Of a DNA stretch of 64,000 nt, positions 931 through 45,530 are shown in pieces. Within the stretch, counting starts at the first letter, position 1. The number at the start of each line of letters is the position of its first letter. The notes beneath the pieces were generated by a model. That model was not told the origin of the DNA and did no database searches. It saw nothing but the letters and a program-made list of their open reading frames with translations. Source of the DNA: Magnolia sinica (lineage: Eukaryota > Streptophyta > Magnoliopsida > Magnoliales > Magnoliaceae); the NCBI RefSeq assembly GCF_029962835.1, contig NC_080574.1, positions 23,720,001-23,784,000 on the forward strand, given 5' to 3'. A program made the translations under genes and the position numbers.

Positions 931-951
931 CACCATTCCTCTTCTCCCGGC

Positions 952-954
<3 letters not shown>

Positions 955-990
<36 letters not shown>
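955..990 (+). repeat. (AG)n tract touching the start codon of copy A
   Basis: Thirty-six bases of pure AG directly before the ATG at 991, in the presumed 5' UTR. Copy B has only a few AG steps at this place, so the tract expanded or was lost after the duplication. Confidence 0.9.
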
Positions 991-994
<4 letters not shown>

Positions 995-1046
995 GTTCGT
1001 ATTCCATTGGCATCTGTGGCCTCGCTACCGCCCTCGCACTCCACAG
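991..1046 (+). pseudogene. Pseudogene copy A, exon 1 (shortened)
   Basis: Reads MSSYSIGICGLATALALHR up to the donor. Compared with copy B the segment with strand 1 and the first Gly of the FAD loop is absent, while the ATG, the rest of the exon and the donor are kept. Confidence 0.85.
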
Positions 1047-1609
1047 GTATTCCCATTTTCTCTCGAAAGGAAACACTTCTAAGCCTCGTGGACACTCTAA
1101 TCACTGTCCATCCGTTTCATCCCACAAGTTCATAGGCCACCATTCAAATAATACACCAGTCGGGTGATCCTATCCGTACAAAAGTTGGGTTTCTTTCTTA
1201 TAGGTTTTCATTTTACCCCATGGATATGGGATGGTTAAGATCGTCTGTTCAGTAATCCATAAGCATTCTATAAGTGACCCTGCCACATGGATGGTTTAGA
1301 TAGTTGTTGGTTCCACCTGTTTTCCACACAATTTTGGATGTCCATTTTATTGGCTATCGATCAAATAGAATCCTCTGCTCAGTGTGGTTTTTGGTTGGTG
1401 GCCCATGAAGAATTGCTGGACCATATGGACGGTTTACGCATGTTGATTACACTTTCTCAATGTCCCCGTGCGACCACGAGGGCTATATCATTGCATCATT
1501 ACTCACACTGCAGCCCACATGCAGAGATAGTCTGATGATTAGAAATTTTGAACTGTCGATATTCTCTATAGTATCACAAAAAAAGCTATTCTAAGTATGT
1601 AATAGCGCT

Positions 1610-1985
1610 TCAGTAAGTATCGTGAACGTTGCTGGTGGGGCTTAGAGTGGTGTATGTATGGCATGGAAACCATGCAGGATGGTCACCCAAACGAGAAAAC
1701 AATGCCCATCCAACCATCATGTGAACCATCACGTGAGTTTCCAAAATTTTGGGTAGCATTCCAGGAGTGGGATTCAGTAGTGACCACTTCAGTACCAAGG
1801 TTGGAGGTGGTCAGGGACGCGGATTTCCTGCTAAAGCCTTTCACAGGAAGTTCTTCCTGTGCCGAGAACCCAAGTGGGGCCCACAGTGATGTTTGTAAGA
1901 AATTCACCCCGTCCACCCCTTTCGCGAGTTCATTTTAGGACATGAATCCAAAAAGGAGCCGGATCCAATACTCAAGTGGCACTCA
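1610..1985. repeat. Dispersed GTGGGCCCCAC-type repeat in intron 1 of copy A
   Basis: Includes GACGCGGATTTCCTG followed by AAGTGGGGCCCACAGTGATG, the same arrangement found in inverted form at 35040-35130. It is absent at the matching place of copy B (about 25505) and so is likely a MITE fragment. The rest of intron 1 (1990-3060) shows no gene. Confidence 0.5.
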
Positions 1986-3322
1986 CTGAGGTTTTGAATA
2001 GGTAATCAAACCATTGATGGTCTTGCCACCAGAGCTTAACTCTCGCCATGGCCTCAAACAAACTGTCACTCCCATCTCACTACGTGTCTGGCTCCTCCAC
2101 TGATCGTCTCATCACGAACTTGACTCTCGTCGAGTTTCGAACAAAAGATCACCTTTCCCACATCCGTGACCATCCTTCCACGAAGCTAAGCTCACGCTAA
2201 TTAAGCGACAAACAATCTATCATATTTATCCCTAGCTGATTGTAAGTGTACTTATTATGAAATCATCAACAAAATACTTTCTGCATTGGACTGTATTTTC
2301 TCTCTATAATATTTCATTATTGAATTGTGGTTGCTATCAAGTGCTTGGTTGAAGTCATTTCAACCAAAAAGCAAATAGAACTCATCTGAACCAACCAAAA
2401 AAACGAAAAGAACTCATCCGAAGTACAAACCCTCCCCTTGCAAATCACATGTTCTCTCATGATTAGCAGCTAGATAAACAGCTGATTCATACAAAACTTA
2501 GTCTCCCGGTCTATTTCGACGCTTAAAATCATTGGTGTTTGGTTCAATTCGAACCACATCCGACTCTGGCATGCCTAGCACATACGACTAAATTTGAGCC
2601 AAAAAATATATGAACCTAAACCATGCATTGTCTGATGCAATTATACTCAAAATAAGTTCATATGATTCATAAATCATACAACATAAGTATAAAAACATAT
2701 TCCCTTGAATAATTTTAAGAAAAAGGGTTTTTATAGGATTTTTTTGCAAATCCTTTTTATATCGTCAGTAGATCTCACAATGCATTGCATGTATCAATAA
2801 TACAACGGAATTTTATGAAGGGTTTATGTGATACATAGAAATTTAATAACTCCCCTCCTATATCTCTTGCATATCGTATCGCCATATACGAACCAGTGCA
2901 TATGCCAAGGTTGAATGCTTGACAAACTATCATATTTAGCACCGCTTGCTTACTCGCCCCACGAATCCAGACCACTGAGATCAGGAGTGCCATTGGGTTG
3001 GGCCTTGGTTAGCCTGTACACTAACATATAGTTTTGATGCCCTAGTTTCTGCTGACTTGGCACACCTATCAAATATCACATTTAGTCATCAGTGGACCAC
3101 CCCATTAGTGATGTAGCTAAAAATTCAGGATAATACGTACGTGCAACAGGTGGTTCACGCAAACAATTCAGGATAATACGTACGTGCGTGCAACAGAATG
3201 AACGACCTGGATCTCTGACCCACGTGCCATATTATCACGTGTGGGGAGAAAATGATTCTACTTACTTTTCTTTGCCATCATACTGTGTTTGATTTTTCTT
3301 TTTCTTTTGGATTTATGTGCAG

Positions 3323-3464
3323 GAAAGGTATTGATAGTGTAGTTCTAGAAAGGGCCGACTCTCCGCGGGCAACGGGAGCTGCGCATTCAAACCAACGGTT
3401 GGCGTGCACTTGATCAGCTGGGTGTAGGTCCCACTCTTCTAGAGAAAGCTAATCGATTACGAGC
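3323..3464 (+). pseudogene. Pseudogene copy A, exon 2 (frameshifted)
   Basis: Aligns over its length with exon 2 of copy B. It lacks five bases just after GGAGCTGC, so the downstream reading frame is lost. Acceptor TGCAG and donor GTAGG are conserved. Confidence 0.87.
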
Positions 3465-4168
3465 GTAGGCCCCTTTGCTTTCGCATTCGTAGTCATTAGG
3501 TTCCAGGTGGTGCGTGTGCCAACAGGCACTGCACGAATCAAGCATGCCATCGTGCCCCTGGAAAAGGAAAATGGAGTGGGCCACGGTAAAAGTGACATTT
3601 GGTGCTGTCATGAATCATTCATAGCAGGGAACAGCAGATGGACAGCTAGGATTCATTCACATTTATGGCCATGGTTGGATTGCTGGAAGTGCCCATCTTT
3701 AAGAGTCACCATGAATGGATCACGCGCGGTCCACGTATCTCGACAATTGAAAGAGATCCAATGATTTTATATTCAAATGTCCTTTTAAATGTGTCCAAGT
3801 GGCTGATGGAGATCACACCTTTAGTGGAATTATTTTACCATTGGCTACAACGGCATGGTTCACTAGATGGACAGTCGAGGTCATCCAAACATGCAGCCCT
3901 ACGGGCTGAATCCATGGTGGCCTACCATTTCACCATTTTCCCACGTGTATGGTGAAGATGTACGCTTCACGAGGCTTTCCATGATAATGGCCCTTTTTCT
4001 TTTTTCTTTTTTGGCCGGTGGTAGGCCCACCATAGTAAGAAAATGGTATCGAATCCATCAGGCAGGGTCACTCTTCATTTAATATTGGACCGCCAAAAAT
4101 AGGTTAATTCAATCATTAAGTGGGCCGTACCATAGAAATCATTGAATAACCATCCCAAACCTTACGTT

Positions 4169-6450
4169 TGTTGGTTCTAATGAAGAGATCAAGGAGAAAT
4201 TTTAATTATAATAAATAAGAAATATTGAAGGAATTGTTGTATTAACAATAAATTTGCTCCTACAAGGAAGAATCCCGATGCACTGAGTCCCAACAATTCT
4301 ACCCCCGGAATATAACAGCTCTTCTCCACAAATGATGGCTTTATCAGGTGCACGCGTGATTTTAGCAAGATGAAATGAAGTCTATCCAAAAGAAAGTTGC
4401 CAAGATAAAACAAGAAGAAACTTAAGAGAAGGAGAGAAGATGGTTTTTTGGGATGTCATATGAATGAGAAAGGATGAGCCTTTGTAGAGAGAAAAGATGT
4501 AACCGTTAGAGCTCGAGGTGCATGCAGGCGGTACATTAATGATCTGTCGGTGCATGTCCGCTCAATTAATATTATGTCAGTGCATGGTGATTCTCTACCT
4601 ACATGCACATGCACGTGACCAGGCACGGATAATCATTTTTCTCCTACTTCAATTGTTCAAAAGATGCCACTAGTTCATTTGCCTCAAGTGATGGGATATA
4701 ATCTTCGATAATGTAAACCAGCATAAGGATAGTGAGATAAACTTCATTTTTTACTGTCATCTCTTAAAATTCTTCTCATAAAAAATCTTGATTCTAAAAT
4801 GCTAAAAAACAATTGTCATAGTGTCGAGATTTTCTTAGTGAGAAAATTGACTTTAAATTGTTAGTTCTAATGAAAAGATTAAGTAGAAAATCTAACTATA
4901 ATAAAGAAGAAATAATGAAGGAATAATCTCAAGAGTTAAGCAACGTTATAGTCATGTCATAAATTTGCCCCACAAGAAAGAACTTCAATGCACTGGGTCC
5001 CAGCAGTATTTTTACCCCTGAGAATACAATAGCTCTCCTCTATGAATGATAGCTTTAATCAAGTACGCATGCGATCATCTCCAGCCATCCTCGGGCTTGC
5101 TTCATATCATGGGAGGGCTGGCCCCTTGTTTCATTCCTTGGGAGATCTGGATTTCCAAAAATGCCTACAGATTTGAAGGGATACCCCCGCTGGCTGCTAG
5201 GATCATTACTCGGGTGACCTGGAGATTGTCTTCGTCTTGTTCTTTATCTCATGCCAATTCAGTCCGTCTAGCAGCCAATCTTCCAGCTATTCGAGACCAG
5301 GGCAACGTTAAATCTTTTAGGCCAAGGGCCCAATTAGAGTGGGTGAAATGGAGTAGGGCAAAGTGCGGCTTGGTCAAGCTCAACGTCGATGGGTCAGCTA
5401 AAGGCAACCCATGCCCTTTGGGGGGGTGGGGGGTGGGTGGTCCTTTTCGCTTTCGCGGCGGCATACAAGTTTGGTTCCAACACTAGAGCAGAGCTTCGAG
5501 CAGTCTATAACGGCCTTGCCTATTGTGGAGCTATGAGATTCGTCAATGTGGAGGTAGAATCGAATTCCATGTTTGTGGTGGGGCTCCTAATTGGGTCTCA
5601 AAAGTCAAGCTGGCGTTGGATGTATCGGATGCGGAGGATAGATAGATTAAGTGTCGGAGGCCAGGTCAGTTTTTCCAACGTGCTGAGGGAAGGGAACGGT
5701 CCAATGGATGGTTTAGCCCGTATGGGGTCCCAGCAGCAACTCTTCTATCTTGGTAAGGTCTGATCCAATCTTCCTCCCCAAATCAAGGGGCTGATCTTTC
5801 TGGACAAAGTGGGCCTTGGCAATAGGGAGGCGTATGCGTCAGCCTAAGTTCTGCCTAGTCAGATTCATAATTTTTATTTTTTCAGTTTTCTACATGATAA
5901 GCTTCCCACGGTTTTTTTTCCCCTCGGGTGGCCCGAAAGCGGTTGAGGTTTTTGTACATGGTTCCCCTTCTATGATATAATACTCGAGATTTATATATAT
6001 AAAAAAAAATTACGCATGCGATCTCAACTAAACGAATTGAAGCCTACTCGCACTGATTTTCCCAAAGGGAAGTTACAAAGAGAAAACCGAAGGAAACTAA
6101 GAGAAGGAGAGAAAATGGTTTTTTTCGGAAGCCATCTGAATGAGAAAGAATGAGCATTTATAAAAAGAAAAGATGTAGCCGATGGAGCTCGAGGTACATG
6201 TGAGCAATGGATTAATGATATCTCAGTACATATCAGTACATGTCAGCTTACGCAGAGAAAAACAAAATAGGTCAGGTCAAAGACACCACACATATAAAAG
6301 TGAAGATTCTTATGTAAAGTCTCGTAATTCTCAACACATCTGAAACATTTGTAAGACTAAACCAAACACATTTATGCAAGTGCGGTCAACACAAGATAAA
6401 ACTTTTTTTCTGATTTTTTAAATCCTTATTTTTTCCTTTTTATTCTAACA
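4169..6450. mobile_element. LTR-like insertion in intron 2 of copy A
   Basis: Relative to copy B (36500-36515) this block is extra. It begins TGTTGGTTCTAATG and ends ATTCTAACA, so it has TG and CA termini with a short inverted repeat. Its first part recurs from 4859 (TGTTAGTTCTAATG) for about 390 bases, as direct repeats that would suit a small LTR or TRIM-like element. No coding region of its own is seen; a LINE sits inside. The class is uncertain, it is old and it looks broken. Confidence 0.5.
5077..6010 (+). mobile_element. 5'-truncated L1-type LINE with RNase H
   Basis: Flanked by a perfect 13-base target duplication TACGCATGCGATC (5064-5076 and 6011-6023) and ending in an A-rich tail. 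It codes for the C-terminal RNase H domain of plant LINEs (VKLNVDGSAKGNP, then AELRAVYNGLAYCGA and VEVESNS), with a frame change near 5450. The 5' part of the element never arrived. Confidence 0.88.
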
Positions 6451-6937
6451 CCATTCACGTGGTGGGGCACCAGATGGTTGGACCAACCCAATTTTCGGGT
6501 GTCGTTGCCTATGTGAGGGAATCATCAACGAATCTCTGTTTTACAGAGGTATATATAAAAAGTAAAAATAGAGGGAGGCTTTTAATTTGTCATAAAACAG
6601 AGTGGCGGTTCACGGTGCAACAGTCCACGATCCAGATCGTTCATTGGGTGAGTCCCACTTCGGATCTGCTCCGGTGGAAGGACTATAAAAGTGTACAGTA
6701 TAGAGCATATTTGCAACGGCCGGCATCATATTGAAAAGGACCACCAGTTGGACTGCTCGGATCATCCCATAAGTTCAATTGGCAGATCATGCCACGTGTC
6801 CAGTTTGGATGCAGAGCCCCTGTTTAAAGGAAATGAGTCACAATATAGATTTAGCCTATGGGTTTATCAAAATGCTGAATATTCCAACTTTGTTATTTAC
6901 ATTTATATTTATTATTTATTGTCTGAATTATATTCAG

Positions 6938-6988
6938 GGTGCGAGAGGTTTCGCTCGACAATGGGATGACACAGGAAGTCCTAGTAGG
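6938..6988 (+). pseudogene. Pseudogene copy A, exon 3
   Basis: Codes for VREVSLDNGMTQEVLVG between TTCAG and GTAAAA, the same length as in copy B. It lies just after the LTR-like and LINE insertions in intron 2. Confidence 0.82.
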
Positions 6989-7201
6989 GTAAAATTCTAA
7001 ACCCGTCATCTGTCCAATAACTGATCAGATGGGCTACCAGTCCAATGGTCTAGATTATCAAGGTGTGGCCCAGCTGCACCTGGTTGAATACAGGAGCTAC
7101 CGATCGTTATGCTGTGAGGGTGTGCCAGTAGGCATTCTTCACCTCGACATTGTAATGTTTCCATTTGGATTTAAAACAGATTGTGCGTGGATTGATGGTA
7201 G

Positions 7202-7370
7202 GAAAGAAGAGTTTCGCTGCTTGCTGAGGAGTGATCTTATCCAAGTACTTTTTGATGGCCTACCGCACGGAACAGTCCGCTTCGGCTGTCAAATCGTCGC
7301 AGTCAAAACAGATCAAGTAACTTCCCACTCCGTTCTTCATTTCCATGATGGGAGTGTGACCACTACAAAG
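7202..7370 (+). pseudogene. Pseudogene copy A, exon 4
   Basis: Open along its length with LRSDLIQVLFDGLP. The acceptor reads GGTAG instead of the TGCAG of copy B, and the donor is GTGATC. Confidence 0.85.
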
Positions 7371-7764
7371 GTGATCTATTGATCCTGACTGTCATTTATT
7401 TTTTTTTGTGGCATTTGCATTATTTTTTAATTAACATTTCCAATTATGATAATATTTACAAAAGAGAGGGTTTCAAGTTTATCTGTGGACCATAATTTAC
7501 AGTCCACTAATGAATAACTTTTAACTTATCATGTTTTTTCGACATCCAACTCTTCCAATAGGTTGTTCACATCGGATCTCTTAGAAAAATCAGCCCCATC
7601 CACTCATTAGATGGGTCACACCATAGAAAAACAACGTTTTGATAAATAACAAAATACAAGTGTGGTCCAATTGGCACGAGGATGAGGCTGATTTTTGCTA
7701 AAAAAAAAATAATGATAATAATAATAATCTCAATGATTGGGCCAACTAATTCGATGGATTGGAT

Positions 7765-8425
7765 GTTGCACACATAAAAGGTTGGAAATTATTTAAACAG
7801 TGGAACCCGGTCCAGTTCCAGCTCAGTGGCCAGTGTCTTGCAATAGGCCAGTGATTAGTAGAAAGGATCAAGCATGTTTAGGCTGAAAGCATGTCCAAAC
7901 CCGGTCCATGATCCAAGTACCTGTTTCCAAGGTATTCTATAACAGTAATGGTGGCCATATGTGTCCTGATAGCCCTATAACTGCTGTTACAGTCTCTTTT
8001 TATTCTGGACCATTATAAGGCCATTATAACTGTACTAGGGCCTTTATGGGTTGGTTTTTTTCTTTTTCTGCAACAGCCAACCCCATAACCTCCACACCAT
8101 GATGTTTTCAGGCCCAGGTCACCTGAATCATGACTGGCCCTCCTTCTAAATACTAGCCTACTCATGACTCGCCCAGACCATGCTAAGTTGGGCTGGGAAG
8201 GCCTACTTTCAGGTCATTAGATAGATGCATGCTCATATCCAGCTCAATTAATTATAAGGTCTAGAATACAAGAACGTGTCCAACTCACAGACCTCAAGGC
8301 CCAGCAGACCAAATGCAGACAAAAACAGGCCGGGCTAGTCAAGCCAAGCCCACTAGCCAACCTACATGTGAAGCCTTCCCCACTTTTCAAGAGGTATTAG
8401 CCATTAAAAAGAAAAGCTGTCATTG
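7765..8425. repeat. Insertion in intron 4 of copy A, dispersed repeat
   Basis: Absent from copy B, where the flanks meet near 37755. Its part at 7960-8285 (TAACTGCTGTTACAG, GCCATTATAACTG, and the CCATGCTAAGTTGGGCTGGG segment) recurs at 41060-41390 in the spacer after copy B. No coding region is visible; probably a non-autonomous element. Confidence 0.55.
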
Positions 8426-8524
8426 GAACAGTTCAAATGATTTTGGTAATCAGCTATTTGATTTTGTTTTCTACGTGATTAGATGATTTAAAAAGAAAGA
8501 GAGATTCACATTCATGCAATGTAG

Positions 8525-8753
8525 ATTTTAGTCGGCTGTGACGGAGTAAACTCAATAGTGGCAGAATCACTCAAGCTAAAACCCACCAGAAGCTACAATA
8601 CAGTTGCACTGAGAGGGCTTACATATTACCCAAATGGTCATGGAGTTGACAATGATTTCGTCCGGACAAGGAAAGGACGTGTGATTGTAGGGAAACATCC
8701 AATCAACGACAAGCTCGTCTACTGGTTCATATCCCGGCCGCAGCTTCTCAAAG
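8525..8753 (+). pseudogene. Pseudogene copy A, exon 5
   Basis: Open and colinear with copy B; keeps LVGCDGVNSIVAES and the YPNGHG segment. The donor reads GTAGTG. Confidence 0.87.
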
Positions 8754-9053
8754 GTAGTGTGTACAGTTCAAATTCCTGCTAAGACTTATGGTAATCATCA
8801 ACAGATGAAAGATTCAAGATCAAGGTTAAAAGAATCAGTGACTCGGATGGATTCCTTGGGCCGACTCCAGCGGCAACCTGTCCAAGTCAGGGTTGAACCA
8901 GCCCGACTTGGGGGGCTGAATCAGCCCTTGGACAATCGTAACCGGCCGATTTGACTGGACATGGGCAACAGACATAAACAGTGCTCAAAAATCTAGTGCC
9001 ACTAGGCAGTTAAAACTGCAAGGCCCCACGACTAGTCCAGATCTCATGTTGGA

Positions 9054-10138
9054 CGGACGTGGTTTGCCTGCTGACACTGCTAGTAGCAGCCACCTCGCTA
9101 CTGGACGGTGATCTGTAGGCCCAAAATCATTATGTGTCTTATCCATACGGGTCATCTAACTTGGATCAGTATTTTAAGGCATGAGCCCAAAAATGATGCA
9201 TATCCAGATCTCAGGTGAACCACACAACAGGAAAACAATGGTGATTGAACAGTCACCTTTTAAAACTTCCTAGAGCCCACTGTAATGTTTATTTCCCATC
9301 TAACATGTTGATTAGGCCATAAATACCTGAATGAAGGGAAAAGAGAAAAAGAAATGGAAGTGCGTACCCAGTTAATCAGTAGCTCCTATCACACTGAGTA
9401 AACTCAGTTGAGCCCACCTTGAATGTATGTGGTCTATCACGCAGTCCATCCTTTTTTCCATCTAATTTAAGGGGTTGACCCCGAAATGGAAGCATTCCCA
9501 ATATCGAACGGATCATACCACAGGAAGGAAACAGTGGGGATAATGATTTCCAACTTTGAAACCTTTCTAGGTCCCACAGTGATGTTTATTTGTCATCCAA
9601 CCTGTTCACAAGATCATAAAGACATGGATGAAGGGATCACACAAATATAAGCTTGATCCAAAACTTCTGTGGCCCCCAAGAATTTTTTCAACAGTAGATG
9701 TTCAATTCAACTGTTTACTTTGGTGTGGTCCATTTTAATATTGTATATGCTTCATTTTTGGGCCCAAGCACTAAAGTTATCTGATAAAATGTATGGACGG
9801 AGCGGATAAAATAAATAAATCATGGTAGACCTTACAGAGTTTACTGAGTACCTACGCGTAGTGAGTAACGCAATCCGCTTCCAGAGAAATATCAGCTTGA
9901 TACAAAACTTTTGTGGCTCCTAAGAAGTTTTTAACGGTGAGAAATCAATCACCACTATTTCCTGTGGTGTGGTCTACCTGAGATTTTGCTCTACCTCATT
10001 TTTGGGCTCATCCCCTAAAATGATATGGAAAATGGATGGACGGCGTGGACAAAAAAAAAAAACATACATCATGGTGGGACCCACAGCACCGTCCAGTAGC
10101 CAGTCCACTACTGGCAGTGTCAGTAGGCAAACCGCATC
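9054..10138. mobile_element. MULE-type MITE in intron 5 of copy A, with nested element
   Basis: Flanked by the 9-base duplication CATGTTGGA (9045-9053 and 10139-10147); copy B has one CATGTTGGA at 38268-38276, the empty site. Imperfect terminal inverted repeats of about 50 bases share GGTTTGCCT.CTGACACTGC and CTACTGGACGGTG. No transposase frame. A second element (about 9358-9887) sits inside. Confidence 0.88.
9358..9887. mobile_element. MITE nested in the intron 5 MITE
   Basis: Starts GGAAGTGCGTACC and ends CGCAATCCGCTTCC, with complementary CTGAGTAAACTCAG and GAGTTTACTGAGTA near the two ends. It lies inside the larger element, so it is the younger insertion. Its own target duplication is not clear. 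Confidence 0.6.
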
Positions 10139-10196
10139 CATGTTGGACATCTCATATGCGGGTTCATTGACGTGAGAACGCCATACGTGTACGCAG

Positions 10197-10729
10197 ATTC
10201 TGAAATCTCGGGGAAGCCCGAACTGATCAGACAAACAGCATTGGAAGCAATGAAGGGATTTCCATCAGAAATAACCGAATTGGCCGAGAACAGCATGGAT
10301 GATTCTTTGAATTCTACAAACATAAGATACAGAGCTCCATGGGACGTGTTACTAGGAAACTTGCGCAGAGGGATGGTGACTGTGGCAGGGGACGCATTGC
10401 ACGTGATGGGCCCGTTCCTCGGGCAAGGCGGTGCAGCTGGCCTAGAAGATGCAGTTATGCTTGCAAGATGCCTGGCGAAAGCTAGGCATATGGAGCCAAA
10501 TGGAGATCTTGACGGGAAATAGCTGGTGAGTATAGTCGGATTGGCACTCGATGCATACGTTAAAGAAAGAAGGATGAGGGTTACAAGGTTGTCTACGGAA
10601 ACGTACATTTATGAATTGTTGGTGGAAACCTCATCTGTTTTTATGAGTGGATTGATTGTGTTCGTTTTAAAGACTCTATTCGGTGGTGGAATACTCGGTC
10701 ATTCTCAATATGACTGTGGCCGCCTTTGA
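10197..10729 (+). pseudogene. Pseudogene copy A, exon 6 (nonsense codon)
   Basis: Keeps YRAPWDVLLGN and the GD motif (VAGDALHVMGPFLGQGG) but has TAG at 10520-10522 where copy B has CAG. After the stop it stays colinear to the terminal CGRL, with one extra codon near 10687. Confidence 0.9.
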
Positions 10730-13560: not shown

Positions 13561-13567
13561 TGTGATT

Positions 13568-13570
<3 letters not shown>

Positions 13571-13615
<45 letters not shown>
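13571..13615. repeat. (AT)n microsatellite
   Basis: Pure dinucleotide run at the end of the CATGTGCCAC-rich stretch. Confidence 0.95.
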
Positions 13616-13621
<6 letters not shown>

Positions 13622-16430: not shown

Positions 16431-16435
16431 ACATC

Positions 16436-17621: not shown

Positions 17622-17624
17622 CAT

Positions 17625-17680: not shown

Positions 17681-17683
<3 letters not shown>

Positions 17684-18749: not shown

Positions 18750-18750
<1 letters not shown>

Positions 18751-33900: not shown

Positions 33901-36900
33901 GCGAATCGGTAGTGCAGAGCAAGGTAGCAGATTGTTTCTTCAACAATCTACCCTCCTGGCAAAGGTTAGAGGTCTTCTTTTTTTAGACAAAGTGGGCCTC
34001 GGATCTATTCGGGAAAGAACTAGAGCCGAGTAGAACAGCCGCTGATTTTCTGTGCATGGCTGCAGGTTCCTTTTTTCCTAGTTTGTATAGTTTCTCTTTT
34101 CCAGGTGCTTTATGATAGGCGTCCCCCAGGTTCTTTTTCTCCTAGGGGATCCCCGAATGTAATTGGCCTCTTTTGCTCTAATGAAATCCTGTTTTGATTT
34201 ATAAAATAAAAAAAAAGTATATTTATTTGACCTGGGCTATCCCTTGTTGTAGGCACCGTGTCACATACACTTTTGCATTATCAAGCGCACGAAAACTAAC
34301 TCAATCCTTATACTTTATTTAATCATGTGAAGTGGAGACCATCTACTTATACGAGTAAAGAAGGTGCCTAACACTTTTCCTCTATGTAATCATGGTTCCT
34401 TACCAAAAATTTTCACCATACATCATGGTTATTTTTATGATAGGGAATACAATGATCCCTTCTCTTATGGTTTTTAAAGGGTCAATCCAACCGTAGTAAT
34501 ATATGTAATTGGCTAGTGGCAACTCCCGGTCATATATAATATAATATCCCCTCCCACAATTATGTTGCAAAAGCCCTAAAAAGGCACTCATGAGTGTGAT
34601 CCGCTCGCAATCCAGGTGGGGCCCACCATGATGTTTGTAATATCTGGACGTCCTATCGCAGAAGAATCTAGGTGGGGCCACCGTGATGTATATGAGAAAT
34701 ACACCCCATCCAACCAATTTTTGAGCTCATTTCAGGACATGCAACAAAAAACGAGCTGGATACACGACCCAAATGGGCCACACGAGAGGAAACAATGGGC
34801 CACCATAGGCAAATTTGCATTGCCACAAAAGTTTTTTTTTATCAGGCTAAGATTTTTGGTTTTCAATTCATCCCAGTGGAAATGACTTTATAAACATCAA
34901 GGTGGATCCCAAGAAGGTTGCAACGGTAGGCATGTCTTTCACCCGCTTTCCCTCTTGTGTGGCCCCTTAGATTTGAATCCAGCTCATTTTTGGTCAACTG
35001 TCCTAAAATGATATCGCAAAAGGGATGGACGAGGTGGATTTCTCACAAACGTCACGGCGGGCCCCACCTAGATTCCCGGCGCAGGAACTTCGTACGAAAG
35101 CCTTTCCCAGGAAATCCGCGTCCGTAATATCCCATGTACACATCAGTGGGCCACACCATATGTGATGTTACGAGAAATTCAGGATGATACATGCATCAGG
35201 TGGGTCACGCAAACAATTTAAAGTTGGCCGCTGCTTTCATCCTATGGCATGCTGATGGTGAGGCCAATAGAATGAACGACCAGGATCTCAAACCCACGTG
35301 CCATATTGTCAAGTGTGGGGAGAATGTGATTCTACCTTCTTTGCTTAGCTACCGTGCTGTGTTTGATGTTTTCTTGGATTTGTATGCAGGAAGGGAATTG
35401 GCAGTGTAGTTCTAGAAAGGGCCGACTCTCTGCGGTCGTCGGGAGCTGCAATCGGCATTCACACCAATGGTTGGCGCGCACTTGATCAACTGGGTGTAGG
35501 TCCCACTCTTCGAGAGAAAGCTCATCGTATATATGCGTAGGTTTCCTTGCTTTCGCATGTATATTAATCGTTAGGTTCCAAGGGGTGCGTGTTTTGTCGT
35601 GCCAACAGGCATTGCTTTGCACGAATCAAGCATGCCATGGTATCCCCCTCATACCTGGAAAAAGAAAAGGAAGTTGGCCACGGGAAATTGCCATTTGTTG
35701 CTGTCTTGGGTCATCCATAGCAGGGTGCAGCAGATGGAAAGCTAGGATTCAGTCACCTTTCTGCCCACGGTTGGATTTCTGGAAATGCATATCTTTAAGT
35801 CTAAGCATGGATGGATCACGGTCCACATATCTCAAACAATTGAAAGATCCCTAATCATTTTTTATCTTTAAGGAAAAAACAAAAACAAAAACAAAAAGGA
35901 AGCCGTTGATGATTATTATTATTTTCTCTCTTCAACCGTCCTTTTAAATGTGGCAAGTGGTTGGTGGAGATCATAACGTTAGTGGAATTATTTACAACGG
36001 CATGGCTCACCAAATGGACAGTCGACGTCATCCAACCATGCAGCCTTGTGGGCTGAATCCATGGTGGCCCACCATATCACCATTTTGCCATGTGTATGGT
36101 GAAGATCACGTTTCATGGGGCCTTTCATGATAATAGCTTCTTCTTTTTTTCTTTTTCTTTTTCCTAAATTACAACCCTTTGACGTTAAAAAATTTTATAA
36201 AATAAATTATCTTTTGAAGTAATTCTAAACACCTCCCTTTTATTTGGTGCCACTTGAAAAACTCCGACCCACAGGTATGGATTCTTACAATTACCTCCTG
36301 CCTGTTTGAGACGTTAGAGGAATCTGTGCCAAATGTCCCTGCCACTCGTATGACTAGCTCCTTGTGCCTGCCGTTGTGCCTACCTAACTGTCCAATTCAC
36401 TCTACTTTTAATATTGGACATCAAAAAATTGGCTAATTCAATCATTAGATGGGCCACATCATAGAAATCAATGGACAACCATCCAAAAATCTTACATTCA
36501 CGGGGTGGGCCACCTGATGGTTGGACCAACCCAATTTTTGGAATGTCCCATTTTCAGACCGAATGACCATTCTGAACAGGTTGGATGACATAAGCATACT
36601 ATGGTGGGTCCGCAAGTCTACAATTAGCTGACTACGAGCCAGTTAAAACGGTGAAATGCTTATAGATAACAATGCGAAGAGACACAGAATCATCAACGAA
36701 TTTCTGTTCTACGGAGGTATATACAGGAGGGAGGCATTTAAAATTGTCATAAAACAGAAGGCAAGTTCACGGTCCAACAGTCCACGATCCAGGCCGTTCA
36801 TCCAATCAGTTCAATTGGTAGATCATGCCACGTGTCCAGTTTGAGTGTAGAGGACCTGTTACGGGAAATGGGTGATAGTTCAGATATGCTTTTGTCAAAA

Positions 36901-38859
36901 TGCTGAATATTAATTCAACTTTGTTATTTACATTTATACTTAATTGTCTGAATTATATTCAGGGTGCGACACCTTTCTCTCGACAATGGAATGACACGGG
37001 AAATACTATATGGGTAAAATTCTAAACCCATCACTTGTCCAACAGCTACATATATGGGCCACCAATCCAATGGTCTAGATTGATCAAGGTGTAGCTCACC
37101 TGATTGAATACAGGAGCCACCCATCGTTATGTTGTGACAATGAAGGTTCTGTTTGGATTTAAGCAGTTTGTGTGGGGATTGTTGCAGGAATCAAGAGTAT
37201 CGCAGCTTGGCGAGGAGAGATCTCATCCAAACACTTTTTGATGGCCTACCGCCCGGAACAGTCAGATTTGGCTGCCACATTGTTCAAGTCAAAACAGATC
37301 CAGTAACTTCCCAGTCTGTCCTCCATTTCGATGATGGAAATGTGGTCACTGCCAAGGTGATCTATCAATCCCGGACGTCAAATCTTTTTCTTTCTTTTTT
37401 CTTTTTTGTGACTGTTACATTATTTTCTTAATTAACATTTTCCTTTTTGAGCAATGATGATAATATTCAGGAAACGAGAAGGGTTCAAGTCCAACTGATT
37501 GGACAATAATTTAGCGGTCCACCCAGTAAATAACTTCCAACCTTCCAATAGGTTGTCCCTACCATGAGGATCGCTTGGAAAAATCAGCTCCATCCACTCG
37601 TTAGGTGGGCCACACCAAAGAAAAGTAATGTTTTCATAAATAACTAAATACAAGTGTGGTCTAATTGGTATGTGGATGAAGCTGATTTTTGCACAAAATA
37701 ATCTCAATGATTGGGCTAGCCAATTCGATGGATTGGATGTCACACATATGAAAATTTAGAACAGTTCAAATGATTTTGGTAATCAGCTATTTGATTTTGT
37801 TTTAAAAAAGAAAGAGACATTCACATTCATGTGATGTAGATATTAATCGGCTGCGACGGAGTAAACTCAGTAGTGGCGGAATCACTCAAGCTAAAGCCTA
37901 CAAGAAGCTCTCATACAAGTGTAGTGCATGGGCTTACAAATTACCCAAATGGTCATGGATTTGGCAATGATTTCATCATGATGAAGAAAGGACATGTGAC
38001 TGTAGGGAGAAATCCAATCCACGGCATGCTCGTCCATTGGTTCATATGCCTGACGCGGATTCCTGAAGGTAAGTGTATTAATTCAAATTCCAGCTAAGAC
38101 TAATGGTAATCATTAACAGATGAAAGATGTTAATCATGGTTAAAAGAATCGGTTACCCAAGTCAGGGCTGACAATCTAGTGCAACAGACATAAAGAGTGG
38201 TGAACAATCTAGTGCCACTACCCACTAGGCAGTTAAAACTGCAAGGCCCCACAACTAGTCCAGATCTCATGTTGGAAATCTCATTTGCGGGTTCATTGAT
38301 GTGCATGCTTTCATCATACATGTACGCAGATTATGAAATCACAGGGAAGCCTGAAATAATCAGAGAAGCAGCACTGGAATTAATTAAGGGATTTCCAGAA
38401 GAAATAATTGAAATGGCGGAGAAGAGCATCCTCGACTCTTTTACTTTCGTAAAGATAAGATACAGAGCACCGTGGGATCTGTTACTGGGAAACTTGCACA
38501 GAGGAACGGTGGCTGTGGCAGGGGACGCAATGCATGTGATGGGCCCGTTCCTTGGGCAAGGCGGTTCAGCTGCTCTAGAAGATGCAGTTGTGCTTGGAAG
38601 ATGCCTGGCGAAAGCGATGCACATGGACCCAAATGGATATTACGACGGGAAGCAGCTGGCGACTAGAGTTGAGTTCGCACTGGGTGAATACATTAAAGAA
38701 AGGAGGATGAGGGTGATAAGGTTGTCTATGCAGACGTACCTTAATGGATTGTTGATGGCAGCCTCATCCTTTTTTACGTGTGGATTGATTATGTTCGTGT
38801 TAAAGACTTTATTTGGTGGCGCACTTGGACATGCTCAATATGACTGTGGCCGCCTTTGA
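24849..38859 (+). CDS. FAD-dependent monooxygenase, MO1/CTF2 type, intact copy B (six exons)
   Basis: Spliced gene with exons 24849-24931, 35390-35536, 36963-37013, 37188-37356, 37840-38068 and 38330-38859; all introns start GT and end AG and the joined frame is open for 402 residues, close to the roughly 400 residues usual for plant MO1/MO2 proteins. Visible motifs: FAD Rossmann GAGICG at residues 14-19 with acidic E37 at the end of strand 2, the CDG motif at 155-157, and the GD motif (G291-D292) followed by GPFLGQGG at 298-305. A hydrophobic stretch lies near 367-390 and the protein ends in CGRL, as in the Arabidopsis homologues. The family is flavoprotein monooxygenases of the PHBH fold; the substrate cannot be read from sequence. 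This is the downstream member of a tandem pair. Intron 1 is 10.5 kb and full of mobile elements. Salicylate hydroxylase-like and zeaxanthin epoxidase-like proteins are relatives, but the sequence pattern fits MO1/CTF2 best. Confidence 0.9.
25592..25775 (-). mobile_element. tRNA-derived SINE
   Basis: On the minus strand an A box (TAGCTCAAGTG, 25754-25764) is followed about 42 bases on by a B box (GGTATCGATTCC, 25701-25712) and the element ends in an A-rich tail (25592-25640). These are the internal RNA polymerase III promoter boxes of tRNA-type SINEs. It lies in intron 1 of copy B; copy A has no such block. The exact 5' end and target duplication are not certain. Confidence 0.65.
26176..26736. 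mobile_element. MULE-like MITE 1 in intron 1 of copy B
   Basis: Begins GGAAGCGGACTGGCTGGTG with an ACACCAGCTATATAG segment; the body carries GTGGGTCCCATAATGAGG. Its right end runs into the left end of the next copy at about 26736. No coding frame. Confidence 0.7.
26737..27324. mobile_element. MULE-like MITE 2 in intron 1 of copy B
   Basis: Left end GCGGATTGGCTAGTGTACC, right end CAGCCAATTCGCTTCC; terminal inverted repeats of about 40 bases including AGCTATATAGCT. It abuts the first copy in the same orientation. Confidence 0.72.
27985..28400. repeat. GAGTCGA-rich degenerate repeat
   Basis: Many ACTCGATTCGACTC and CGAGTTGGC-like motifs, and a segment at about 28200-28270 (CTGGGGCAAAGCTGCAAGAG) that recurs at about 28320-28400 in changed form. 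The rest of 27330-29400 holds no gene that I recognise. Confidence 0.5.
29413..30612 (+). mobile_element. Solo LTR of the chromovirus family at 53.3 kb
   Basis: A 1200-base LTR beginning TGATGGAGACATC and ending TGTCCTGCATCA, similar to the LTRs at 53311-54540 and 56737-57963. The 5-base target duplication TAAGG (29408-29412 and 30613-30617) is perfect. It is a solo LTR, clearly older than the two paired LTRs by eye. It lies in intron 1 of copy B. Confidence 0.88.
31437..35135. repeat. Repeat block shared with 39880-41040
   Basis: The parts 31437-31747 and 34217-35135 match 39880-40190 and 40190-41040 in order, including a GTGGGCCCCAC-type MITE (34590-35130). The middle of this copy is a LINE insertion. 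Probably an LTR-type or other long element copied to two places; the ends are not defined. Confidence 0.6.
31748..34216 (+). mobile_element. 5'-truncated L1-type LINE (RT to RNase H) in intron 1 of copy B
   Basis: Begins within the reverse transcriptase at RGLRQGDPISPSLF, shows the YADD active site (in LLYADDTILF), a finger-like segment, then RNase H (VKIKVDGSSLGNPGNSGWGG, AELRAIMVG, VIVESDSN), and ends in an A-rich tail. Several stops and frame changes; it is dead. The uninterrupted flank at 40185-40200 is the empty site. No target duplication longer than a base or two is seen. Confidence 0.87.
35390..35536 (+). CDS. Monooxygenase copy B, exon 2
   Basis: Follows an AG at 35388-35389. It codes for the second strand and the conserved stretch through NGWRALDQLGVG. 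The donor is the GT at 35537; using the next GT downstream would add a stop codon, so this site was chosen. Confidence 0.88.
36963..37013 (+). CDS. Monooxygenase copy B, exon 3
   Basis: Short 51-base exon bounded by TTCAG and GTAAAA. It codes for VRHLSLDNGMTREILYG, which aligns with the segment after the first FAD region in Arabidopsis MO1. Splice phases fit exons 2 and 4. Confidence 0.85.
37188..37356 (+). CDS. Monooxygenase copy B, exon 4
   Basis: Bounded by TTGCAG and GTGATC; ends on a codon boundary. It codes for RRDLIQTLFDGLP and the following beta-rich segment up to VTAK. Confidence 0.88.
37840..38068 (+). CDS. Monooxygenase copy B, exon 5
   Basis: Begins after GATGTAG with ILIGCDGVNS, the CDG (DG) motif of the FAD and NAD(P)H site, and runs into the substrate domain (GLTNYPNGHGFGND). 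The donor is GTAAGT. Confidence 0.9.
38330..38859 (+). CDS. Monooxygenase copy B, exon 6 (last)
   Basis: Starts after GTACGCAG and codes for residues 227-402. It includes RYRAPWDLLLGN, the FAD ribityl-binding GD motif (VAGDAMHVMGPFLGQGG) and the hydrophobic C-terminus, ending with TGA at 38857-38859. Confidence 0.92.
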
Positions 38860-38945
38860 AAACGTTTCACAATATAAGCTGCTGCAAAGTGATACAATAA
38901 GATTGTGAGTGGGGCCAACGTTCCCCTTAGCCACCACATTCAAAG

Positions 38946-38947
<2 letters not shown>

Positions 38948-39015
<68 letters not shown>
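38948..39015. repeat. (CT)n microsatellite after copy B
   Basis: Pure CT run about 90 bases after the stop codon of copy B, probably in or near the 3' UTR. Copy A has none at the matching place. Confidence 0.95.
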
Positions 39016-39017
<2 letters not shown>

Positions 39018-39155
39018 GTAATTATTGAATTTCCTGCTTTCTAAAATAAGCTTTGTAAGGGGAAAATAGTTAATAATGTATGCTTCTTTCCTTGTGAGAA
39101 TTTTTAGATTTTTCTTGAGAATAATTCCGCTCTTCTATTTGAGTGAGTGAATTAT

Positions 39156-39861
39156 TGATGTAGAGCAGGTCGCGGACGCCAAGATGGATAGAAAAGGCCT
39201 GATCGGAAGCGGAGGTAATCCAGACCGTCAGAACTTAAAACGGACATACAAACCGGAATAAGCTTTCGGACATACCATATATGATTTTGGGCTAAGACGA
39301 GCTAGTTTAGCCACCCAACCCCACTACACGGGGTTGACCACGCTGAATTTGTGAAATACCATCAGATCGACAGTCGAATCCCTGTTTTAATTTTGTTTTT
39401 ACTATTTATAGTAAGTATTAGTTTGAGTATAACTCTTCATCTGTTGGGCTCTAGGAGTTGCGCCCAACATGAAAAGTGCTTAGAATAGTTACAGGAACAT
39501 TATAATTCGGCCAAATAGGACACTTATTATTTTTGGCCGAAAACCATGCACACTAGTAGGAATCATGACCATCTATAAATAATAAGTTATTTATAGTAAA
39601 TCCGAATTCTAGGAGTTTTAGATGTAGTTTAATTCCGAAGCTTCTTCCATGGCTTAGTGTCCCTATTTAAAGGGGTGTAAACTTGTTTATCCAATCATCA
39701 CTCAAATTATGAATTTTATAGAATCTATTTTCTATTTTCCTTGCTTTTTTCCTCGTGTATTTGACAAGTCTCCATGAGGAGTCTAGAGAAGCTCTATGGA
39801 TTCGGAATAGTTATCCTTGAGGAAGACGGTAATCGACCTCATCACATTCATCCCCGCATCA
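39156..39861 (+). mobile_element. Solo LTR, TGATG...CATCA family
   Basis: A 706-base relative of the LTR at 15716-16430, here on the plus strand. Flanked by ATTAT and ATTAC, a 5-base target duplication with one difference. No internal part remains. By eye it differs from its relative at many sites, so the two are separate insertions. Confidence 0.8.
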
Positions 39862-39879
39862 ATTACCAACTTGACTGAG

Positions 39880-41040
39880 ATGAAAGAGTAGAAAGAGATG
39901 TGTTCTAGCCCAAGTCAACTTAGTCAAGCCAACCCTTAGCCACCTAAGCAACCATAACATCAATCCAGCCACTCAAGTATACCCTTGTGATAAACATGTT
40001 CACCCTACTCTAATCAAGCTTCATTCATACTAACATAAGCATCGTACATCATTTTCTCCACTCCAAATCCCTTCCGGTCTAGTCGGTCAAAGTGTATGTT
40101 CTATAGTTCGTCGGTATAACTGGATCTTGCCCATCAAAAGCTTGGACTAAGTAGACTTCAACTGCTTCGTCAAGACGGTGCATCTGAGTATATTTATCTG
40201 ACATGGGCTATCGCTTGTTGTAGGCACCGCATCGCACACACTTTTGCATTATCAAGTGCACAAGAACTAACTCAATCCTTGATGCTTTATTTAGTCCAAT
40301 GAAGTAGAGACCATATGCTTATATGGGCAAGAAGGTGCCTAATACTTTTCCTCTTTGTAATTGTGGTTTCTTATCCATAATTTTCACCATAGATCATGAT
40401 TCACTTTAAGACAAGGAATCTAATGATTATAGAAATATGTGTAATTGGCTAGTGGTGACCAAAAGTCATATATAATATAATACCTCCTCAATTACATTGC
40501 AAAAGCCCTAAAAAGAAGCATGAGTGCGGCCCGCCTGCAATCCAGGTGGGCCCCACCGTGATGTTTGTAATATACCAACTTAGATTTCCTTTCATAGGAG
40601 AATCTAGGTGGGGCCCACCTAGATGTTTGCAAGAAATCCACCCTATCCATCCATTTTTTGAGCTTATTTTAGGACATGCGACAAAAAATGAGCTGCATCC
40701 AAGACACAAATGGGCCATATGAGAGGAAACAGTAGGCCACCATAGACAGTTGCATTGCCATAAAAGCTTTTTTATATGAAGCTAAGATTTTTGGTTTTCA
40801 GTTCATCCCAGTGGAAATGACTTTATAAACGGTTTGGATAGCATATAAACATCAACGTTGATCCAGGAAGGTTTCATCGGTAGGCATTTCTTTCACCAGT
40901 TTTCCCTCGTGTGGCCCAGTTTTCCCTCGTGTGGCCCCCTTGAGTCTTGGATCCAGCTTATTTTTGGTCACCTGTCCTAAAATGATATTGCAAAATGGAT
41001 AGGGTGGATTTATAACAAACGAATCCAGCTTATTCTTGGT
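39880..41040. repeat. Repeat block shared with 31437-35135
   Basis: Uninterrupted version of the block in intron 1 of copy B. Contains a GTGGGCCCCAC-type MITE (40540-41035) at the same relative place. No coding signal. Confidence 0.6.
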
Positions 41041-41059
41041 CACCTGTTATGGTCTCTCT

Positions 41060-41390
41060 GTACAGGACCATTACGGGGCCATTACCACTGTACCAGGGAC
41101 TGTAACAGCCATTACAGGCCTTTATTGGTTGTTTTTTTTTTTCCTGCGACAGCCAACCCCATAACATGTAATGGTTGCGACGATACCTTTACTTAATGGA
41201 TGTTACTAGACACACGATGATGTTTTCAGGCCCAGGGCATCGAGCTCATGACTGGCCTTCTAAACTAGCCTACCCATGACTCGCCCGGGCCATGCTAAGT
41301 TGAGCTGGGCAGGCCTACTTTCAGGCCATTAGATAGATGCATGCTCATATCCAGCCCAATTAATTATAGTCTAGAATACAAGAACATGTC
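41060..41390. repeat. Dispersed repeat shared with 7960-8285
   Basis: Carries TAACAGCCATTACAGGCC and the CCATGCTAAGTTGAGCTGGG segment. It ends where the unit B spacer begins to match unit A (about 41390), so it lies at a junction. Confidence 0.6.
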
Positions 41391-44300
41391 AAAGGCAATG
41401 TTGAAACTACTTTCTTCTTTCTCCACATCAATGATTCTAATCATGTATCTTTTGTCTGGCATTCACTCGTCTGTGTTTCTGCTATGTGAAAATTCAACAC
41501 TTCAGGCCAAGATCTCTCTGAGCAGCAGTAGCAGCAACAATATACTAACATGGCCTGGAACCAAGGGACTCTTTGGGCTCTAAAATCATAGAAAAATACT
41601 TCTTTTTTGTGGATATTGCAGGTACTATGACCAGCTGACATGATGCACACAGCTGATAGTTTCGAACCTCTATCGAATACAAAATAACCCAGCCTGAGAA
41701 GAAAACTGCTCAACAAATAAGCAAAAGCCATCCTGCTGGCCATCAATCTCGGTATAATGAATAAAATTGGAAATAAAATTGGAATCGTCAAAAATGGAAC
41801 ATTACCTGTGATGGAAGAACGTAGGGACAAATTAGAGTAGAAGAATTCAAATATTTGAATTTGGAGTAAAAGGAAAATTAATTAAATCAAAAAGAGATTT
41901 CAAGACCAGCAGCAAGATAAGGCGCTAACGTCATGGCAGCTCTATCCAGACTCACCATCTTTTTCTAACAGTAATCTCAAGATGGGGCTACGTTGCAGAT
42001 CAAGGGACAAAAGCACATTTCAAAAGGCCTTAAAGTAGATGTTGATTTCTTTTTTCATCTTTACGTATAATGATTCAAATTCTATTAAAAGTAAAGAACA
42101 GAAAGAATAGCAAGCAGGCATCAAGGGAAGGGGCAAATATCCCCAATACAAAGAAATGGTCTAAAACCTACCTTCCCTGGCTAGCCAGTCAGCAATATCC
42201 CTATAGACATGACTAAGTGCAATATTCAACCAAGACAAAAGGCCACGAATTTCCTAAAAACTGAAATATAATTTGTGCAATGATATTTGTAGAATCAGCC
42301 TCGTACAACATTAGTAACCCTCTCCAATACATGTTGGAATGTTACCATAAAGTAACAGTGTGATCTATCATCTATGTACAATGTTGTCACGCCCTAAAAT
42401 TTGGTTCCCGGGTTAGCCAAACCCGACTCTGTATTCCTGGTCATGATTTATAATTTAAGTATCTATGACCATAATTGCATAAAAAACACATAACAGCAAA
42501 CCAAATTTCCATAAAATGTTTAATTTTAATAATCAAGACTTTCCTTTGTGCTTCCACTATACATCTTTTTTTTTAATATACAACTAGAATAAAAGACTAC
42601 AGCTAGATAGACGACTAGATCTTTGCTCCGCTTCGCTCCCTGATTAAACCCTGCAACCTGAAATATTATCAAGATAGTTTAAGCATACATAGCTCAGTGG
42701 GATCATTTCTTATCCAAATTTTAAATTTTCTAAATTTATATCCAAAATAGATAACAACAACATATCCTTGAATTATAAAGCATCAATCAAAGAACATGTA
42801 ATAAGATACTAAGATCACAGGGATACTATGAATGCATTGCCTACTACGAATACATTAACAATAAATTAAATAAATATAATTTCTTATTGTAATCTTTTAA
42901 GAGTAATACAAGGCGAAGCACCCGTGAATCTTTTAGGAACAATTCAGGGCAGGGCACCCGTGTTGTGGATCTTTTAAGGACAACCTAAGGCAGAACACCT
43001 GTGATGTGGATATTTTAGGGACAACCCAAGCCAGAGCACATATGATGTCGATCTTTTAGGGGAAACCCAAGGCAAAGCCCCTATGATGTGGATCTTTTAG
43101 GGACAACCCAAGGTAGGGCACCTGTGGTGTCAATCTCAATTCAATAATTACATGCACATGATATAAATGCAACTTCATAATCATCAGAGATATCAAATAT
43201 AAATACATCATCGCTACACATACTAACTACATAAATTTGAAATTCCAAATTCGGGAAGATCACCTACCTGTTCTGGTGTGAAATGGACTCAAATTCGTCT
43301 CGACTAAGGCGCCTCCCACTGAACTATCAGATTCTCACCAGGGATCCCGGCACTGCTGGACCTAAACTTGGCCCTGACTCGGCCTGTACTCAGCAAGTCG
43401 ACTTGGTGAGTCAACTCAGTGCCCCTGGTTCTTCTTCTCTCCCGATCACTCTCTTCGTTTCTCTCCTTCTCTCTCTTCTCTCCTACTCTCCCAACCACGT
43501 CCAACAATGGGCACTGGACTCGACAAGACTTGATTCAACTCAATGAGTCGAACTCCACTATTCTTGCTCTCAATCCAAACTCTCTCGGTTGCTAGTTTGC
43601 ATGTTCTCTCTCTCATTGTATAGGGAATTTATAACTCTTAGTCTCTCTACATTTCTATGATCCGAATTACTCGAGGAAACTTGCAAACAGGTTACGCAAG
43701 GAGGGTTTCCAGCAACTTGGTTTCTTTTATACACTGATTATCTTTAGTACTAACACACGATATGTGATCTGGTTTAAGAATCCAACCATTATATGATGAT
43801 CTGATGGTCCTTAGGATGAATAGTTTAGATCAAGGATAGGTGATTATCTAAGGTTCTACGGTCAGATTTTCTTGGTGTGGAAAATGAAGGTTATTAATGG
43901 TGAATCACTATTATAGATCTTGATATTCCGACTATTCTGGACAGTTCAGATGCTTGTAACGGAGCTCGTGGACCCAAGTTTTCAACGGTCCATAGATGTT
44001 TACCCAGTGGGTTCCGGAGGAGAAGATTTCTCTGCCAGAGCACTCAAACGATAAGATCCAAGGAGAGATCAGGGTGGTGTGCGATAAACTGCGTCAACAG
44101 ATTTTATTTTTTATTTTTTATTTTTAGGTCAATTTGATCCAAGTGTGGGGGTTGTGGTGTCCCATTGATTGAACGGTCTGGATTAGGAATCTTGACGCAG
44201 CAGGAAGCATCCGTAGTTGAAATTGTCAGATTCTCCGGTCTTCACAATCTCGTTTGAAGAAGAGATGGAGAGGAATTCGTTTTGTATACAAGATGACTCA

Positions 44301-45530
44301 GCAATGCGTTTTGACCGAGGTTTAATGGAAGATGGACGGTCTTGATCAACATACGGACCCCGTGTGTCGCTGAATGATGATTTTTCCAGTCATCTGGAGG
44401 GGAGAGGAGGGGAGGAGATGCAGTTGGAGAGGGAGACGGAAACAGTCCGTACTTGGTGGCAATCTGTTGTAATGAAACTTCTCTTTGTTTTTTTATTTGG
44501 TGGGCCCCACCATGATGGGTGAGAAATTCACTCCGTTTCATTCATTTTGTCATATTATGTTGTGACACAGGCCCAAAATGAGGCAATTCCAAATCTCAAA
44601 TGGGCCACACGACGTGAAAAGTGGGTAGGGGAAATGCCTACTGTTGGAACCTCCCTAGATCCCCCTTGTTTCATCTTTTCTTCTTTTTTTATATCTAAGA
44701 TAATATATTTTATTATATTGTCCTTTTTAATGCCGGGAACTTCCAAAGGCATATGTGTCTCATCTCTCTTGTTTTTTTATATATTATTTATTTATTTAAT
44801 TAAGTCCATGGCAAGGATGTCAGTGGCTTTGTTTTCTCCTTTTTCTATTTGAAAACTGCGCCACGCGTAGCCTCCGATTGCACCGTCCGATTAAGACGAA
44901 ATTCAGTCGTAGTCTGTAATTTGACGTACCTTTTCCAACATGCCTAAAATTGGCTAGTGGCCAATATGCATTTTTACGGTTTACGCCTTTCCATGGTCCA
45001 TAGATCGTGTGCGCGCGTCCCGTGCAAGATGCAACTAGTAGTTTTGAAGTGTACTCCATGAGCTTCATATTGAATGGTTTTCCTTGGTATTTGGGTGGCC
45101 CAGTTGACAGATCTGAACGTGATGAACGGTTAGATGTTGAATTATAATCAAAGTAAGTAATCCATGGGTAAGGCCTATACACTATTAGATTCAGATAACT
45201 TGTACACATGTGCAAGTTCCTTAGATTGTGACTTCGACGGTAGGTTAAGCATATACATAGGTAAAAATCAAGATGAACGGATCAAAATCTCGAATGGACG
45301 TGAGTATGAACGGATATGATGATCTTGTGGTCGGTCTACTATGATTGAGTCTATGGTGAGCATCATGGGTCATGATTGGGTAGGTTTAGTATATGTTCTA
45401 CGGTCAGATTTTGAGCTAATTTATGGATAAAAAGGTAGTCTTGTGAGTGTAAGTGGCAAGAGTGCACACACACCAAAAAAATCATATAATTGTTCATCAC
45501 TTAACTCAATGATTCACACTAAACAGATCG
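41390..45530. other. Unit B spacer, counterpart of 15.6-23.2 kb
   Basis: Follows unit A without its solo LTR, 43-bp doubling, long (AT)n and (CT)n runs, and MITE cluster. Contains the LINE RNase H relic (about 42170-42240, minus strand) and the 40-bp minisatellite. No host gene was recognised. Confidence 0.75.
42895..43132. repeat. 40-bp minisatellite, unit B
   Basis: Six units of about 40 bases with the pattern GGATCTTTTAGGGACAACC and ending GCACCTGTGATGT. Between-unit differences are several bases each. Confidence 0.9.

Follow-up and report, generated by a model that had tools for sequence, protein, structure and literature searches.

A tandem pair of flavin monooxygenase genes in Magnolia sinica, one intact and one probably disabled late

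When one member of a tandem gene pair is open and the other carries disabling lesions, did the second decay ever since the duplication, or were both long retained until one was lost? This question is raised by a 64,000-nucleotide stretch of the Magnolia sinica genome (contig NC_080574.1, positions 23,720,001 to 23,784,000; hereafter, the window, with positions counted from its first nucleotide), which carries two copies of a gene predicted to encode a flavin adenine dinucleotide (FAD)-dependent monooxygenase. A first-pass annotation described the locus as a direct tandem duplication of about 22 kb, with gene and spacer repeated colinearly and broken only by insertions, and proposed self-alignment and a comparison of exon and intron divergence as checks. 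We consider it likely that the locus arose by an old tandem duplication of a gene plus its spacer, that both genes were long constrained, and that the first copy (copy A) was disabled late, an explanation that leaves the lower divergence of the spacers to be accounted for.

Two colinear units with an open and a disabled gene

Self-alignment of the whole window, refined by small-word blastn and MAFFT blocks, identified two colinear units on the same strand, unit A (~985-24128, ~23.1 kb) and unit B (~24839-45525, ~20.7 kb). In each unit, an FAD-dependent monooxygenase gene of six exons precedes a spacer, with order and orientation shared. The matching same-strand blocks, whose ranges may include smaller gaps, are (A/B) 985-1590/24843-25480, 3072-4168/35126-36498, 6452-7776/36495-37748, 8423-9053/37756-38276, and 10148-10733/38277-38863 in and around the genes, and 16463-19792/41436-44633, 22248-23189/44662-45466, and 24102-24128/45499-45525 in the spacers. 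Stretches found in one unit only lie between these blocks. The E-value was printed as 0.0 for blocks 6762-7776 and 16463-19792, far beyond chance. The units thus lie side by side, colinear and in one orientation, as a tandem duplicate pair does, and the proposed direct tandem duplication stands, with the qualification that "about 22 kb" is the average of two unequal lengths. The window contains no N, and its G+C content ranges from 35 to 48% in 2-kb steps. A third gene copy in the window was considered and rejected, because a search with the copy B protein (tblastn, E ≤ 1) returned the two copies and one weak match (E = 0.16); matches of intron 4 at 51.3-51.5 kb were read as a shared repeat.

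Copy B (24849-38859, forward strand) has exons at 24849-24931, 35390-35536, 36963-37013, 37188-37356, 37840-38068, and 38330-38859, separated by GT/AG introns, the first of which is 10.4 kb long. These exons form an open frame of 1209 nt (402 codons plus stop). The Pfam domain FAD_binding_3 matched residues 9-323 of the 402 with 97.0 bits (cut-off, 22) and so spans most of the protein, as in class A flavin monooxygenases. The GxGxxG, DG, and GD motifs are the three motifs of this class, and the copy B translation carries all of them, as GAGICG, GCDGVNS, and AGDAMH. From domain and motifs, the product is probably a class A flavin monooxygenase. Ninety-five distinct PDB sequences matched copy B at E ≤ 0.001; among the 60 listed, the best was tropone 2-monooxygenase (8rqh, E = 9.9e-23), and 6-hydroxynicotinate 3-monooxygenase (5eow) matched with E = 2.1e-17. 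These solved enzymes have the domain and motifs in common with copy B but are only remote relatives, from which its substrate cannot be inferred. Copy B is putatively of the plant MO1/CTF2 type. The likeness, judged by domain and motifs, lies in FAD_binding_3, the GAGICG loop, and the DG and GD motifs; copy A differs from this type in lacking the start of the dinucleotide-binding fold. Arabidopsis MO1 (At4g15760) has been described as an aromatic-ring hydroxylase with homology to salicylate-degrading enzymes (PMC2664814).

Copy A (991-10729, forward strand) was delimited by alignment to copy B, with exons at 991-1046, 3323-3464, 6938-6988, 7202-7370, 8525-8753, and 10197-10729. Its five introns sit where copy B has them, and all ten intron borders are still GT/AG. 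In exon 1, an in-frame deletion of 27 bp has taken away the first strand and the first glycine of the dinucleotide-binding loop, exon 2 has a 5-bp frameshift deletion, and exon 6 has an internal TAG at codon 335 (copy B numbering); a further 3-bp difference between the copies in exon 6 keeps the frame. The whole of copy A scored 80.1 bits against FAD_binding_3, compared to 97.0 bits for copy B. Introns at the positions of the paralogue and disabling lesions in frame are the marks of a duplicated (unprocessed) pseudogene, and on these sequence features we judge copy A to be an ordinary one. Like duplicated tandem pseudogenes of plants, it combines introns, disabling lesions, and an intact neighboring copy. 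The earlier description of one decayed and one intact gene was therefore accurate as to present state, with three lesions in A and an open frame in B.

Timing of the loss of copy A

If copy A had evolved neutrally since the duplication, its exons would be expected to have gathered gaps as noncoding DNA does. Comparison of the two copies gave 52 gap events in 2594 aligned pairs of intron, 34 in 3908 of spacer, and three in 1177 of exon, or 20, 8.7, and 2.5 events per kb, respectively. The proposed comparison of exons and introns thus revealed far fewer gap events in exons. At the intron rate, 12.1 coding indels are expected in a neutral copy A alone, and the probability of three or fewer is 0.002. 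No gap was assigned as a lesion of copy B, against the same ~12.1 expected under neutrality (P(0) = 5e-6 at the intron rate and 0.005 at the spacer rate). Over 389 codons, the Nei-Gojobori method (NG86) gave a synonymous divergence (Ks) of 0.328, a nonsynonymous divergence (Ka) of 0.170, and a Ka/Ks of 0.52 (bootstrap interval, 0.39-0.69). Outside the lesions (exons 3-6 to the stop), the profile scores of the two copies were nearly the same, 53.5 bits for A and 54.1 bits for B. Residues were also compared with seven prokaryotic relatives. The comparison was possible for 105 of the residues that differ: 24 were nearer to the relatives in A, 23 were nearer in B, and 58 tied, and in columns with at least 60% agreement among the relatives, A keeps the shared residue in five, B in three, and neither in 21.

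The low number of exon indels, the Ka/Ks of 0.52, and the equal profile fit outside the lesions make it probable that copy A functioned under coding constraint over the greater part of its history. A rough lesion count suggests for how long it was not. About 15 disabling lesions are expected over a fully neutral branch (12.1 indels plus 3.1 stops at a branch K of 0.09), and three were found, which suggests neutrality for about a fifth of the branch; the exact Poisson range for three events is 4-57% of it.

Several results weigh against a late loss. At the indel rate of the spacer, the deficit in copy A exons loses its significance (5.3 expected; P(≤3) = 0.23). The 24:23 split of residues depends on distant outgroups, with 27.8-32.5% identity. 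The single premature stop in A is unremarkable at branch K values of 0.05 and 0.09 (P(≤1) = 0.46 and 0.18) and reaches significance only at a branch K of 0.164 (P(≤1) = 0.03), so that the stop count alone is not decisive. Neutral decay of copy A ever since the duplication, as the first-pass annotation implied, would agree with the first of these results, with the presence of three lesions, and with the lower score of the whole protein, although part of that last difference is due to the deleted loop. Such decay would leave the shortage of exon indels relative to the intron rate, the Ka/Ks, the ten preserved splice borders, and the equal profile fit outside the lesions to be accounted for, and we regard it as improbable. 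On the same exon gap deficit, Ka/Ks, and profile fit, the view of the pair as a clean natural experiment, with function preserved in one copy and decay in the other, is not supported.

Uneven divergence of introns, flanks, and spacers

The spacers of units A (15607-24128) and B (41387-45525) were compared by blastn and MAFFT. They differ at 377 of 3931 aligned sites (9.6%; Kimura two-parameter [K2P] distances of 0.10 and 0.12 in two parts), whereas the introns differ at 406 of 2577 sites (15.8%; K2P, 0.178). The spacer thus has ~0.6 of the mismatch rate of the introns. Decay of CpG sites was considered as the cause and set aside: mismatches outside CpG show the same contrast (7.9 and 9.9% in the two parts of the spacer versus 14.3% in introns). 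Fourfold degenerate sites differ at 34 of 144 positions and, outside CpG, at 18 of 116, in agreement with the introns. The slower divergence spans nearly all of the 4-kb spacer, and it is patchy, with 3 to 21 mismatches per 100-site block and a mismatch dispersion of 1.73, compared to 1.09 in introns.

This contrast also counts against the explanation that we prefer. The likelihood ratio for introns versus spacer was 54.7 (block permutation p ~5e-5), which rejects a single event at a uniform rate. Gene and spacer are not one 22-kb unit with even neutral divergence, as had been supposed. A second difficulty is that no homology was found between the 3′ flanks of the genes and little between the 5′ flanks, while the introns still align. 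In the interval from stop codon to spacer (A, 10734-15606; B, 38864-41386), the only blastn matches at E ≤ 1e-5 were those of repeat families. Local alignment of B 38867-39155 with A 10737-11100, A 10737-14100, and A 15010-15605 gave scores that were reached by 91 of 200, 41 of 60, and 82 of 100 shuffles, respectively. Between the 5′ flanks, similarity amounts at most to a weak 47-bp stretch (A, 905-951; B, 24797-24837), with a score reached by five of 200 shuffles; when longer flanks were aligned (A 1-985 and B 23190-24842), eight of 60 shuffles reached the score. Homology is therefore not continuous from gene through flank to spacer. The description of the units as broken only by insertions fails on these flanks and on the uneven divergence, and insertions and deletions near the genes have to be assumed to explain the lost homology.

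The junction of the two units, which is also the 5′ flank of copy B (24129-24848), has no counterpart in the window apart from, at most, the weak 47-bp match to the 5′ flank of A. For 24129-24838, alignment to 45526-46500 gave a score reached by 53 of 60 shuffles, and no counterpart was found elsewhere in the window at E ≤ 1e-3. Since this segment lacks a counterpart, the duplication junction is not directly visible. An assembly artefact, with two haplotypes placed in tandem, is nevertheless very unlikely, and the sequence gave nothing in its favor. The usual heterozygosity lies far below the 9.6-15.8% mismatches between the units, and the two units carry different sets of transposons.

Gene pair and spacer pair may instead have different histories, with an older gene duplication and spacers that were later converted or re-duplicated, a possibility that we rate well below the preferred one without dismissing it. 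It would account for the lower mismatch rate of the spacer, for a gap-event rate only ~0.43 that of the introns (8.7 versus 20 per kb), for the persistence of the contrast outside CpG, and for the lack of homology found between stop codon and spacer. The shared order and orientation in both units fit one event, however, and the patchiness of the spacer would also be produced by constraint.

Constraint on the spacer as a noncoding region (regulatory DNA, for example), slowing its divergence in both units, is in turn unlikely. The patchy conservation is what it would predict, but the slow-down extends over nearly all 4 kb, and further results also speak against it. By eye, spacer mismatches look flat with respect to codon position in most of 13 windows, with 41742-42042 and 42658-42959 uneven. 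A six-frame Pfam search of the unit B spacer found no family at E ≤ 0.01 and one below-cut-off match (E = 0.015), and no Rfam family reached its gathering score anywhere in the window. That match was the sole one in a search for a Pfam-recognizable gene in 41021-45500 (six frames, E ≤ 0.1) and was taken as chance. Six-frame Pfam scans of 45526-50500 and 57967-62940 likewise gave no recognizable gene; the remaining window was covered only by Pfam tests of five single open reading frames. We can offer only tentatively that the spacer pair was kept similar by a process that spared the genes, such as recurrent local conversion within the 4 kb, or that it holds a constrained noncoding element of the gene pair.

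Two local features of the spacers were also observed. A 41-bp minisatellite lies in the B spacer (42924-43130, 5.0 copies), with a related array in A (18119-18222, 2.6 copies). The start of the A spacer (15607-16500) contains a short direct duplication, with 51-nt and 19-nt matches at spacings of 793 and 791 bp; a solo long terminal repeat (LTR) sits between these duplicated matches, which are single in B.

Separate insertions and implications of the pair

The two units differ in their transposable elements. Intron 5 of copy A contains a 1085-bp terminal inverted repeat (TIR) element (9055-10139) with near-identical inverted ends GGACGTGGTTTGCC and GGATGCGGTTTGCC and a perfect 9-bp target duplication, ATGTTGGAC; the empty site in copy B (38269-38277) is an uninterrupted ATGTTGGAA. 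From the length of its target duplication, we presume this element to be Mutator-like. The A spacer carries the solo LTR mentioned above (15716-16430, reverse strand), which has the ends TGATG...CATCA and a 5-bp target duplication, ACATC (15711-15715 and 16431-16435). A solo LTR of the same family is present in unit B (39156-39861, forward strand), flanked by ATTAT and ATTAC, which agree in four of five bases. An apparent local inversion, 15733-16431/39841-39155, was rejected on this account: it consists of two solo LTRs with TG...CA ends and target duplications in different surroundings, and the inverted block is thus not part of the tandem repeat.

Besides the solo LTR and other insertions, the A spacer holds a 2.46-kb TIR element (19793-22249) with inverted ends GGAAACGGATTGGCT and GGAAGCGGATTGGCT, related to repeats at 25.9-27.3 kb; no target duplication was recognized at its ends. 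Intron 1 of copy B has an insertion-rich part of 9.6 kb (25481-35125), the counterpart of which in A is 1591-3071. It includes an LTR-like segment (29411-30612), a reverse transcriptase (31715-32194), and an RNase H (33305-33796). The target duplications show separate later insertions in each unit. The idea that each copy provides empty-site controls for the other is borne out in part, for the intron 5 element and the solo LTR of the A spacer.

Other repeats were recorded in the window. The LTR-like segment in intron 1 of copy B is a lone one, ~71% identical to LTRs at 53311 and 56737. These belong to an LTR retrotransposon (53311-57966), whose 1.23-kb LTRs differ at 74 of 1230 aligned sites and have only ~2.2 kb between them. 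It has an internal Tf2-1-like SH3 domain and no clear target duplication. Its 5′ LTR is followed by TTGGTATCAGAGCC, which we take to resemble a methionine-tRNA primer site. The reverse transcriptase and RNase H remains (31715-33796) resemble those of a long interspersed nuclear element, and a related fragment lies in intron 2 of copy A (5118-5823). Related repeats with inverted arms, at 9.5-10.1, 14.1-15.0, 19.8-22.2, and 25.9-27.3 kb, are many, occur in both orientations, and are partly nested.

The history that we favor would begin with the tandem duplication, long ago, of an ancestral segment of gene plus spacer, with unequal crossing over as the simplest route. The indel counts, the Ka/Ks, and the profile fit suggest that both copies were then under coding constraint most of the time. 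Copy A would have been disabled late, in roughly the last fifth of its history (range, about 4-57%), with B remaining open. Transposable elements would have inserted separately in each unit, and indels may have erased the homology beside the genes. The lower divergence of the spacer would have to be explained in addition, whether by gene conversion acting locally, by constraint, or by a second event.

In plants, pseudogenes of the tandem and proximal classes are overrepresented relative to functional loci (for tandem ones, in the analyzed species except grape), and tandem pseudogenes most often retain flanking homology, according to one study (PMC7935947). In our judgment, the Magnolia locus is an ordinary case, an old tandem pair of which one member became a pseudogene late, and it agrees with the excess described there. 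It is unlike plant tandem pseudogenes in that the immediate gene flanks are nearly without homology and the more distant spacer is conserved better than the introns. The under-diverged spacer is an oddly well-preserved stretch behind each copy and an exception to the ordinary outcome.

A pair with one decayed and one intact member need not imply redundancy from the start, for both copies here seem to have been retained for long until one was disabled. Where elements inserted separately and left target duplications, the pair also provides empty sites for some of the genome's repeat families. Should the spacers prove to have been homogenized or constrained, the locus would illustrate in detail how unevenly the parts of one duplication can evolve.

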